In this document: positions 15,849 through 36,203 of the stretch, one piece after another
Numbering within the stretch: the stretch's first letter is position 1
How the letters are laid out: each line of letters opens with the position of its first letter
Assembly (NCBI RefSeq): GCF_000205165.1
Contig: NZ_GL883853.1
Coordinates: 1 to 64,000 of the forward strand
Reading direction: 5' to 3'
Origin: Paraprevotella xylaniphila YIT 11841
Lineage (GTDB): Bacteria > Bacteroidota > Bacteroidia > Bacteroidales > Bacteroidaceae
Length of the DNA stretch: 64,000 nt
The notes under the pieces: generated by a model
Told to the model about the DNA's origin: nothing
The model's database searches: none
What the model saw: only the letters and a program-made list of their open reading frames with translations
Made by a program: the position numbers and the translations under genes

Positions 15849-16143
15849 TATATATAAGAAGGCGTTTATCATGCGCTGGTTCTTGACGCTTCGAATCTCG
15901 CAAATTCAAAATTGTAGTTATGAACTATGCAACGGTAGATGCCCATGGGATGTTTTTATAAATATCCCTAAGGGATTGTTTTGTCCTTTTGCCCCTATGG
16001 GCAAAAGGAAGGAGGCAAATCCTAAAGGGGGATTATATAAACTCATCGGCGTGGGTTCTGCGTTGCTCGTTCTACTACAATGGGCAATGCGAGAGCCTCG
16101 AAGCGTGGGACGGGTGACGGGTACAGATCTCCACGCTTTTTTT
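15849..16143 (+). ncRNA. candidate structured RNA, copy 1
   Basis: Homologous to 35929-36203. Pairings visible: AAGGCGT/ACGCTTC (15859 and 15886); a central hairpin with an 11-bp perfect stem (15984-15994 with 15999-16009); GTTGCTCGTTC (16062-16072) with 16108-16118, 11 pairs including wobbles; an outer stem GCGTGG/CCACGC (16049-16054 with 16131-16136) followed by seven T, i.e. an intrinsic terminator; and TCTCGCA (15896-15902) complementary to TGCGAGA (16088-16094), which lies in the loop of a GGGC/GCCT hairpin and could form a pseudoknot. It ends 82 bases before the 16226 gene. I cannot name the family; a known Bacteroidales RNA is possible. Confidence 0.7.
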
Positions 16144-16225
16144 GTTGTAGTATTCTTTATCATGAGTATCATTTAAAGTCAACGGAGGGAGGTCGGTTGG
16201 CAGTTTGTTGTTTTAAAGAGACTTT

Positions 16226-19200
16226 ATGATGAAACGACTATTATTGGTGACCATGGGGACGGCTTCGTTCCTTGTTGTATCGGCACAGGTAGTGTCTTCT
16301 GTTACGGAGGAACCTGTTCCGATAGCTTCATTGGGAACTCCCAACTTGTCTTCATTCTATGATGCCGATGGCGACGGGGTAAAAGAATATTATGATTTGG
16401 GAAAACTGTCTTACGGTACAACTGTACTTGTGAAACGTTATCACTGGAAAGCCCCCGGTTGCTACGGGAGCTATGTACCGATAGGAGTTCCGGATTTGTC
16501 AAGCCAAGGCAATGGTATGTACGGGATGTTGCTGCATGCGAATAATGATGGCTTTCCCGACTTTTCAGGTTTCGTGTTCTATGATGCCTCACCTATACAT
16601 ATTGCCTTAAGCGAAACAGACGGAGCTTACCGTCTGATGAATCGGGCTTATTCTGCCTATCCGTTGGACGTGAACCACGACGGGCTTCCGGACTTGTTCG
16701 CGTTCAACGCTACGGACTGGGATATTCTCTATCAAAATCCCGACGGGACGTTTACCGCCACGCGCATCGATACCCTTTCGCGTGTGCAGGCCGATTCGTT
16801 AGTGGCCCGTAAGGCAGAAGAGGCTGACGGGAAGTTCGACACCGGCGGCCTGCCATCGTTGCGTGACGGCATGTTTGTGGGTGGCGGCCATGTGACGGAC
16901 GAAAGCTACAAATTCACGCAGGCCATCGACGTGAACCGCGACGGCTATATGGATTTGGTGGGGCCGCGCACGATTTTCTATAACATGGGCGACAACCGCT
17001 TCGTGGCCTCCCGGCAACCGGGCGAGCTGACCGTGAAGGACTTGAACGGCGATGGCATTCCCGACTACATCTATAATGATACGGAAGGCAAGCGGGTGTA
17101 CACCCGTACCTACTTGGGCGGCGACCGTTTCGAGGAACAGACCTTGGTGAAGGATTTGGACGTGACGGACATCCATTGCTACGACTTCGACAAGGACGGT
17201 GACTTGGACATTCTGCTCACGTTTAATTATAATGAACAGTTCGGCTTCTCGTTCCTTGTCTTTGCGGAAAACAAAGGGAACGGGAGTTTTGAAATCCACG
17301 AAAACAGTTACAAAGGGCATTGGACGTTCGGGCGGTGCTTGGATTATGATAATGACGGTCGTATGGAATTGTTGGCCGGTATCCAAAATGAAGACGACGA
17401 CACGGCCTATCATCCCTACAATGTAGCATACAAGGCATTGTACCTTTTCCGTCTCGACCGGATGACGGGCATCGGGGAGCCTCAAGAGGCATTGGTGGAA
17501 AGTTGGTTTACGCGGACGGAGTCGAACAGCACGTCTGCAGATATGAGCACGGTGGGAATCGTGATGGCGGACTTTGACAACGACGGCAGGGTGGAACTGA
17601 TGGCTGATACGGTGTGTCATCCGGAATTCCGGACGGCTGTCGGTTATTGGACTTACCGCGACTTGCCCCTCTTGCAGGGCATCCCGGCCAACGAAGCCCC
17701 GCAACGCATGTCCGCCCCGTCGGTAAACCTCGACCGCAAGAGCGGCAAACTGAAGGTTGCCTGGAAGCCGGGCAAGGACAAGGAGACTTCTACCGTGGAT
17801 TTGACCTATGCCCTCCGTATCGGCAGTACGCCCGGCATGGACGACATTTATTTCTCGGGAGCGAATGCCGACGGCAGCCGACGCGATTTCCGTCCCGGCA
17901 ACATGGGGGCGAACTTAGATGCCACATTGGACGTGAGCCGTTGGAAGCACGGCACATATTATATAGCCATACAGACGGTGGACCCGATGGGTAAAGGCTC
18001 GGCGTGGTCGGACGAGGTGGCGTACGAGCACGACCTCGTGCAGGCAGCGTTCACGGTGTCGGATGATGAACCGGCAGCGGCAGACACTTTGGTACTGACG
18101 GCAGCTTCCCGCGCCGCCGGGTTGGATTACGCTTGGGATTTCGATGGAGGCAAAGCCATAAAGGCTTCGGCTGACAGCGCACAGGTATGGCTGACGTTCG
18201 ACGTGCCCGGCGAGAAGCATCTCCGCCTGACGGTGACGAATCCGGCGGATGGCACGGAGGATGTACGCGAAAAGGTCGTGACGGTGCAGCGTGTCTCATG
18301 GCAGCAGGTTTCCCACGAGGCATTGGGGATGACTTGGCCGGTTTTGTTCTGGGATATGGACGGAGACGGCATATTGGATGTCTTGGACCAAAACGGCTTT
18401 TACGTAAATGACGGATACGGAAGGTTTGAAAAACTGGGGACCATTTTCAATTCAAACCTTACGGTGGAGTCTCGTGCCGGTATGGGAGGCCAAGCCCCCG
18501 TTTTGGACTTTGACATGGATGGGGATGCCGATTTTGCGGTACGGAACAATAAGGGCAACCTGATTCTTCATCGCGGAGGCCGCGACTTTGAGGCCCTCGA
18601 TGCCAATCCGTTGTTGGTCGAGCACGGCTTTGCGGATTTGGACAATGACGGTTTTCCCGAGCTGGTGGATGCTACGGTCGGGTTTTACGCACCGTCCGAG
18701 TTTTATGTCAACAAGGGCGACAACACCAATTTTGAGAAAATGACCTTGGATGACGGAGACGGGAATTGGATACAGATAGAATTTTTATACGATGTCAATC
18801 GTGACGGCTTGCTCGACATCTTCTCCACACGTGGCAGGGTAGATGGGAAATGGAAAGATGCCTTTGCCCTGAACAACGGCGGTTTGGAATTCGACGTACG
18901 TTATTCCCCTGAAAGTGAAGGTACAGTGGTTGCTTTCGAAGACATGGACGGCGACGGCGTGCCGGACAAGGTAGTGACTTACGGTAATGACGGAGTAGAC
19001 AAGGATGTGATAGGCATTTGCTTCGGCAATAAGGATTACACGTTCGGCACTCCGGTCAAATTTGTATTTGAAAACGCTCACAGTAGCCGTTATACTGTAG
19101 AAGTGGTCAAAATAGCCGATTTCGACAACAACGGCTGCCCGGACATCTTGGTGTACTATGATTTCTACGAACAAAACGTGAGCAAGAAGGAATATGCCAT

Positions 19201-35688: not shown

Positions 35689-35772
35689 CTCCGCAGAATA
35701 AAAAATCAATCTCAGGAGAATGAAAAATCGTTTGCCTGAGATTGATTTTCCGTTTTGCGGAGAATGATTTTG
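35689..35772. repeat. palindromic intergenic repeat, copy C
   Basis: Near-symmetric: CTCCGCA and AATCAATCTCAGG on the left mirror CCTGAGATTGATT and TTGCGGAG on the right, with GAATGAAAAATCGTTTG in the middle. Shares the CGCAGAA-AATC and AATCTCAGG modules with copies A, B and D. Confidence 0.75.
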
Positions 35773-35928
35773 TGTTCTTTTATTATTTATAAATAGTTGT
35801 AATATAGTGCTTTATACGTAAAGCTGAATTTTTGTAGAAGAAAATCCCGAATTGTTGGATTATTTTCCGTATATTTTCCATACGTGCCCATGCGGAAGCC
35901 TCGTCGGAGGTGGGATGGCATGGGATGG

Positions 35929-36203
35929 CATATATAAAGAAGGCGTTTACTTGACGCTTTGATTCTTTGGCTACTCAGAATCTCGCAAGTTCTAATCACT
36001 GTCGAAGACAAAGCAACGGTAGATGCCCTGTGGGTGTTTTATATCAGCCCCGATTGTATCCATATGTGTTTTGCATGGATAGAGGGGACGTATATATAAA
36101 CATATCGGCGTGGGCTTCTGCGTTGCTCGTTCGGACAGTGATGGGCAATGCGAGAGCCTTGAGTAGCGGAACGGGCAACAGGTACAGGCTCCCACGCTTT
36201 TTT
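35929..36203 (+). ncRNA. candidate structured RNA, copy 2
   Basis: Homologous to copy 1. Same pairings: AAGGCGT/ACGCTTT (35940 and 35954); a different central hairpin TATCCAT/ATGGATA (36057-36063 with 36075-36081); GTTGCTCGTTC (36122-36132) with GAACGGGCAAC (36169-36179), 11 pairs; outer stem GCGTGGG/CCCACGC (36108-36114 with 36191-36197) plus six T; and TCTCGCA (35981-35987) complementary to TGCGAGA (36149-36155) in a hairpin loop. GCAACGGTAGATGCCC (36013-36028) is identical in both copies. It ends 73 bases before the 36277 gene. Confidence 0.7.

Follow-up and report, generated by a model that had tools for sequence, protein, structure and literature searches.

A multi-copy structured RNA family upstream of protein genes in Bacteroidales: a candidate transcription attenuator

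Two elements in the window and their relatives

The window, a stretch of 64,000 nucleotides at the start of contig NZ_GL883853.1 of Paraprevotella xylaniphila YIT 11841, carries two homologous structured elements. Each is followed by a protein gene on the same strand. The limits of the cores are those of the outer helix, and their structure is derived from 66 copies of the family.

15847..16150, + strand: core of copy 1
16226..21607, + strand: gene after copy 1, 1793 aa, with FG-GAP and PKD-like repeats
35929..36211, + strand: core of copy 2
36268..36960, + strand: gene after copy 2, about 230 aa, with a hydrophobic N-terminus

The protein encoded after copy 1 has a T9SS C-terminal sorting signal (TIGR04183, 27.7 bits, cut-off 23), and the one encoded after copy 2, read from 36277, has no match in Pfam or NCBIfam. 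The initial annotation had proposed two related structured elements, and both are found where it placed them. The conserved blocks that it quoted are present in copy 1 and copy 2, and both copies end in GCGTGGG ... (T/C)CCACGC followed by a T-run. Its statement that the elements contain no ORF is literally wrong. Mechanical frames are present at both copies: one of 101 aa lies over copy 1 (15871-16176), and copy 2 is overlapped by one of 151 aa (35967-36422, + strand) and one of 197 aa (35992-36585, - strand). The base pairing described below, with its tolerance of G-U pairs, argues against genuine coding by these frames.

The window copies are members of a real RNA family that has no Rfam entry. 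It is an intricately folded RNA of about 280 nt, present in several copies per Bacteroidales genome and located 5' of protein genes. The RNA probably helps decide whether the downstream genes, many of which serve the cell surface, are expressed. A search of the whole window against Rfam 15 at gathering cut-offs gives no match. Relaxed E-values add weak matches only: copy 1 matches one lncRNA and two miRNA families (E 0.34-0.98), and copy 2 a single miRNA family (E 0.41). For eight loci searched against Rfam, the sole match is abiF, which adjoins a copy in locus L209. Our own covariance model (R1) covers the 3' domain alone and misses copies without that domain.

In the P. xylaniphila genome, BLAST with copy 2 returns 12 pieces that represent nine elements (two of them split in two) and one 20-nt piece. 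R1 likewise finds nine copies (E <= 7.6e-15); the match ranked next is to copy 2 in antisense (E 0.046). BLAST detects the element in 25 of 61 relatives. R1 (E <= 1e-4) matches 219 of the 301 family genomes sampled, 58 of 295 sampled from the order, and 24 of 25 genomes of one other genus. The family is therefore not confined to this genome, and the initial expectation of homologues in other Bacteroidales is borne out. In a sample of the phylum, four of 296 genomes match, including that of P. xylaniphila, which alone matches strongly; the other three score 32-34 bits. A pattern scan of named genomes yields 89 stretches, 80 of which were taken as loci, in records from Bacteroides, Phocaeicola, Prevotella, Paraprevotella, Hallella, Barnesiella, Muribaculaceae and others. 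Three plasmid records carry copies. A phage record (MT839469.1, unverified and unannotated) also holds a copy and was left out of the analysis. The element is not described in the literature searched, namely titles and openings of abstracts outside subscription journals, preprints and supplements.

A conserved fold with loop-loop pairing

The 80 fetched regions and the window give 82 distinct places, 76 of them close to full length. Of 75 full-length copies free of N, 66 pass an alignment score filter of 0.88 and make up alignment A2; alignment A3 holds 63 of these rows. The structure was derived from the 66 A2 sequences. A second pairing test used 71 of 77 further copies, some from the same genomes as A2, none of which entered the derivation. 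P0 is the closing stem and includes the T-run. P1 and P2 form a left hairpin, P4 and P5 form a right hairpin, and P3 is a hairpin with a variable tip. The long-range helices P9, P8 and P7 connect the P2 loop with the P5 loop, and their pairs rank first in an unguided covariation scan of the 66 sequences. In the window copies these parts lie as follows, all on the + strand.

15847-15860/16138-16150, +: copy 1 P0
15861-15870/15934-15943, +: copy 1 P1
15878-15885/15919-15926, +: copy 1 P2, poorly paired in copy 1 itself
15886-15893/16098-16106, +: copy 1 P9
15896-15902/16088-16094, +: copy 1 P8
15911-15918/16074-16081, +: copy 1 P7
15949-15955/16041-16047, +: copy 1 P3
16049-16055/16130-16136, +: copy 1 P4
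16062-16072/16108-16118, +: copy 1 P5
16137-16142, +: copy 1 T-run
35929-35941/36199-36211, +: copy 2 P0
35942-35951/36018-36027, +: copy 2 P1
35960-35969/36003-36010, +: copy 2 P2
35970-35978/36159-36167, +: copy 2 P9
35981-35987/36149-36155, +: copy 2 P8
35995-36002/36135-36142, +: copy 2 P7
36033-36039/36100-36106, +: copy 2 P3
36108-36114/36191-36197, +: copy 2 P4
36122-36132/36169-36179, +: copy 2 P5
36198-36203, +: copy 2 T-run

Compensatory changes across homologues exceed the controls, as is characteristic of a structured RNA family. Counted without correction for relatedness among copies, 88.7% of 5193 cells are paired in the 66 copies, compared with 40.3-50.8% when partners are slid. 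Cells changed on both sides number 654, against 149-237 for slid partners and 212.5 after shuffling, and the covariation is 0.433, against 0.103-0.127 and 0.237, respectively. The covariation on which the initial annotation had staked its reading is strong. In the 71 further copies, 86.5% of 5470 cells are paired versus 41.5-48.6% for slid partners. These copies contain 767 G-U cells versus 163 A-C cells, and the sense strand therefore acts as RNA.

The helices P1, P2, P4 and P5 are paired in 81.0-99.6% of cells in the 66 copies, and P1, P2 and P5 show two-sided changes. P4, directly 5' of the T-run, is the best conserved helix (paired in 99.6% of cells in the 66 copies). It has two-sided changes in two cells of the 66 copies and in none of the 71 further copies, so its support consists of conservation and G-U changes. 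P0 is paired in 77.9% of cells in the 66 copies and 69.8% in the 71; besides P7 (66.9%, the least paired helix of the 71 copies) it is the most often unpaired. P6 (GGGC/GCCU) hardly varies, and a small hairpin on the left, distinct from P1-P2 by its size, has one covarying pair; P8 may therefore be a true kissing-loop pair. A short UGUC/GACA hairpin in the left loop was considered and dropped, as P2 and P7 account for it.

The loops of the two large hairpins are private complements of each other. Across 137 copies, the mean energy of the loop-loop duplex is -33.4 kcal/mol within a copy and -15.8 kcal/mol between copies. In 123 of the 137, no loop pairs better than the partner from the same copy, and in 136 this partner ranks among the top 5%. 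The initial annotation had described loop sequence as variable. This holds for the loops of both large hairpins, whose mutual pairing explains their hypervariability; much of what it took for loop is paired.

Promoter boxes and downstream genes

The copies are preceded by a motif that we take to be the -7 box of Bacteroidales promoters, with the consensus TAnnTTTG. Among the 151 copies with 250 nt of upstream sequence, it occurs within those 250 nt in 143; the opposite strand gives 24 and the downstream side 14. The complete form TTG-N17-23-TAnnTTTG is present upstream in 80 copies, against eight and four in the two controls. The median distance from box to element is 58 nt. Between the box and the core lies a strand, named T, that can pair with the P4 region. 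In the window these features are as follows.

15688..15695, + strand: -7 box of copy 1, TAACTTTG, about 150 nt 5' of the core against the usual 58 nt
15769..15778, + strand: strand T of copy 1, CCTGCGCCGA, complementary to the 5' region of P4
35870..35877, + strand: -7 box of copy 2, imperfect, TATATTTT; the P. clara orthologue L050 has TATATTTG
35887..35900, + strand: strand T of copy 2, CCCATGCGGAAGCC

Gene geometry was determined for 130 copies that have at least 1500 nt of flank and a complete end. By a simple ORF rule, the next downstream gene lies on the same strand in 115, is opposing in seven and is missing in eight. A shorter ORF limit gives a same-strand frame downstream in 146 of 150. 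The downstream gene starts at a median of 67 nt after the T-run or element end, and in 63 of 115 cases at 40-100 nt. The upstream neighbour reads toward the element in 67 of the 130 copies and away in 40, and 23 have none. By their geometry, the copies are very likely cis-acting 5' leaders. Since they have their own promoter box and a close same-strand gene, we regard them as cis leaders rather than as free-standing RNA genes. The initial reading as a non-coding RNA stands as far as the RNA family, its homologues and their covariation are concerned; its free-standing gene gives way to a 5' leader.

The downstream proteins were drawn from 142 references after removal of nine near-duplicate loci, and 140 were analysed over at most their first 330 aa. 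They give matches to 60 Pfam families in total. Among the matches listed are 13 BspA-type LRR, six NusG, three FG-GAP and three collagen-like proteins, two radical SAM proteins and two type III methylases. A crude N-terminal rule predicts export for 86 of 140 downstream proteins, for 23 of the 107 neighbours on the upstream side and for 27 of the 51 products of second downstream genes.

A possible attenuator and the alternatives

The family combines conserved helices, a functional strand, a promoter box and a recurrent gene geometry. We judge, with a probability of roughly 55%, that this multi-copy 5' leader acts in cis and controls transcription by attenuation, with two pairing schemes at its disposal. 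From a promoter of the Bacteroidales type, as a rule about 58 nt 5' of the core, RNA polymerase would first transcribe a short 5' segment and next the core. In the first scheme the local hairpins P1-P2 and then P4-P5 would form, and P4 with the U-run would stop RNA polymerase. In the second, the P9-P8-P7 loop-loop pairing and the closing stem P0 would make a long-range rod that permits read-through into the gene. P0 would take up the U-run, extended P0 would also take the 3' strand of P4, and strand T near the 5' end could likewise capture the 5' strand of P4. The schemes would compete during transcription, and some factor or signal would set the balance.

Several features favour attenuation, which we consider the likelier function; termination, switching and a signal are predicted from sequence. 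A conserved stem followed by a U-run lies 5' of a gene, as in attenuators, here in the form of P4, which lacks a short loop. The 3' stem and T-run are a plausible terminator, and the T-run doubles as one strand of the covarying closing stem P0. A mutually exclusive antiterminator pairing would have its candidates in the P0 extension, strand T and the rod. When the 66 cores are folded by nested minimum free energy, mainly the rod results (P9 in 63, P8 in 64, P3 and the P0 extension in 55 each, P0 in 37, P7 in 36) and P1, P2, P4 and P5 in one copy each, although P1, P2 and P5 covary, which speaks for two schemes. Attenuation is favoured also because strand T pairs better with the P4 region of its own copy. 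The leader strand, for example CCCACGCCGA, complements UCGGCGUGGG of P4 and its surroundings, and both change together in subtypes. Among 129 copies with a -7 box, the 45 without GGGCTTCTGC in the P4 region pair this region with their own leader at an average of -20.9 kcal/mol and with other leaders at -17.3 kcal/mol, uncorrected for relatedness. Over 62 copies taken from the 66, pairing of the leader with the P4 region averages -20.4 kcal/mol, versus -15.9 kcal/mol for shuffled regions.

Other observations disfavour a simple switch. P7-P9 scarcely overlap P2 and P5, and both schemes might coexist; either the RNA adopts the two-hairpin form and the rod in turn, or it holds both pairings at once as a pseudoknot. 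The pairing of T with P4 is more stable than P4 in just eight of 62 forced folds, and the P0 extension barely exceeds its shuffles (paired 96.6% versus 95.2%, covariation 0.272 versus 0.233). The attenuator is weakened by the size of the P4 loop, as P4 encloses about 75 nt and the stem with its T-run is absent from the lists of simple terminator scans, which cover loops of 3-8 nt.

The loop-loop architecture is not known to us from other leader attenuators and matches none in the literature searched. Tentatively, and at somewhat less than even odds, the family may form a class of regulatory leaders in which a copy-specific, full-length loop-loop "lock and key" of about 33-36 nt avoids cross-pairing between copies and picks the terminating two-hairpin fold or the read-through rod, for surface, capsule and accessory genes across Bacteroidales. 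If the attenuator reading is true, an order-wide RNA regulator would be added to gut bacteria. One RNA mechanism would then link genes with a part in encounters with host, phage and competitors, namely those for BspA-like surface proteins, capsule antiterminators, DNA methylases and peptide maturases. The architecture also opens to testing how a single RNA accommodates two conserved pairing schemes and how paralogous copies within a cell keep clear of each other.

JUMPstart (RfaH) and epsC/EAR are leader elements of polysaccharide or surface operons that act on elongation. Both are entered in a table of PMC2864571; they belong to other phyla, and the copies described here have no Rfam match. 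The same table gives Bacteroidales-1, Bacteroides-1, Bacteroides-2 and GUCCY-hairpin as candidate RNAs of the same phylum. Those with Rfam numbers have no match here; Bacteroides-2 and GUCCY-hairpin carry no Rfam number there and fall outside the comparison.

A role of the leader in loading specialised NusG (UpxY-type) antiterminators is unlikely; in this reading the folded RNA would recruit a factor that carries polymerase past the leader terminator in the manner of LoaP and its hairpin. The dfn leader of Bacillus velezensis, which depends on LoaP, is likewise a long 5' leader: a hairpin in its RNA recruits LoaP, a NusG paralogue, and an intrinsic terminator stands ahead of a costly operon (PMC12691694). 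Its element, unlike the core of about 280 nt with loop-loop pairing found here, is a small UNCG hairpin (PMC12691694). UpxY proteins prevent premature termination in leaders upstream of upxY, according to a review (PMC7819879). These Bacteroides fragilis capsule leaders belong to the same order and show an early end of transcription, and some copies of the element likewise stand directly before UpxY-family genes, whereas most precede other genes; the likeness is one of description only. Eight of the 140 downstream proteins match the UpxY family, though no genome examined has more than seven such matches, housekeeping NusG-like ones included. Of the 61 relatives, seven carry the gene immediately after the element (above the cut-off in G000, G013, G006, G017 and G001, below it in G027 and G034), and also in L225 and L226. 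In 25 genomes of another genus, 78 element matches and 65 UpxY matches adjoin at six places, five of them in one genome. The element is thus found at just six of 65 UpxY matches, and the gene that follows a sampled copy is mostly of another kind than UpxY. G054 (99% complete, six copies) and G036 (five copies) each have a single NF033644 match, which is NusG-like (58.1 and 62.5 bits), and G021 (75% complete, four copies) has no NF033644 match. G054 and G036 argue against UpxY as the general partner. It is a candidate partner for some copies, and the element is a concrete RNA candidate for the leader signal of some UpxY-type antitermination.

A purely structural 5' UTR, with one fixed pseudoknotted fold that serves mRNA stability or translation and a T-run that is merely a strand of P0, is improbable too. 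P0 includes the T-run and extends past it with covariation, the pairs of the two schemes overlap little, and P4 is not a short-loop terminator; P4 and the T-run are nonetheless the best conserved parts, and mRNA stabilisation by itself would hardly account for a stem with T6 after it. More doubtful is an orphan riboswitch, whose compact pseudoknotted core would bind a metabolite or second messenger and control termination or translation. The core is compact, near-invariant stretches lie outside the variable helices and one RNA stands 5' of many unrelated genes, but among the matches listed the downstream genes share no common pathway that would name a ligand.

A trans-acting small RNA family, one version of the non-coding RNA family of the initial annotation, appears quite improbable. 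A promoter box and a possible terminator would suit it, and a multicopy small RNA family of the same order, FopS, exists in Bacteroides thetaiotaomicron (PMC11697453). FopS is about 65-70 nt long and acts in trans on SusC mRNAs (PMC11697453), and it is set apart by description, not by sequence. The copies here lie close to a start codon on the same strand, and their hypervariable parts pair internally. A terminated leader could also act in trans.

A non-autonomous mobile inverted-repeat element, with covariation produced by template switching between its arms, is very improbable: it would account for a quasi-palindrome that matches its own antisense, for the P7 block changed on both sides between orthologues and for copies on plasmids, but not for the fixed relation to promoter and gene, the ends that differ between copies and covary, the G013 orthologues of most P. 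xylaniphila copies or the G-U excess. Template switching between inverted repeats could create such blocks and give covariation without selection. In L045/L056, four successive P7 pairs are changed on both sides and make up eight of 11 substitutions. The G-U excess argues that there is selection at the RNA level too. Across eight close pairs (seven between P. xylaniphila and G013, a genome of the same genus, and L079/L082), two-sided changes that keep pairing fall in P7 (six) and P9 (two). The element is 92.2-98.5% identical in the seven. The 600-nt stretch that starts 80 nt past it is 74.3% and 72.1% identical in the pairs of the window copies and 73.1% and 53.7% in two other pairs; in the remaining three it is as similar as the element.

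Helix P7 and the symmetry of the element

The long-range helix P7, which together with P8 and P9 joins the loop of P2 to the loop of P5, has been replaced en bloc, in both of its strands, between orthologous copies of the element that are 92-96% identical elsewhere. This is seen in the P7 columns of L045/L056 and again in L041/L052. The element is also a quasi-palindrome, and its own antisense strand is matched by the element profile at both copies in the window:

15849-16150, antisense strand, match to the element profile
35929-36211, antisense strand, match to the element profile

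The two halves of the element appear as if they were inverted copies of each other.

Genes and RNAs beside copies

At locus L209, the 5' end of the element copy and an abiF RNA are about 230 nt apart:

5864-6144, minus strand, element copy
6374-6410, abiF RNA (RF03085, 45.1 bits)

The 3' side of the element at L084 and L094 carries small Cys-rich proteins followed by radical SAM maturase-like genes (arrangement read by eye, families from profile matches). These small proteins look like peptide precursors.

Copies on plasmids and in a phage-named record

Copies occur on the plasmid records L223, L224 and NZ_CP096966.1 (Phocaeicola dorei, Bacteroides finegoldii, P. vulgatus); in L223, the hypothetical gene INE79_RS23945 begins 61 nt past the element end. 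A nearly full element is present in MT839469.1 (L231), an unverified 4260-bp record titled Bacteriophage sp., whose sequence is possibly bacterial DNA rather than phage.
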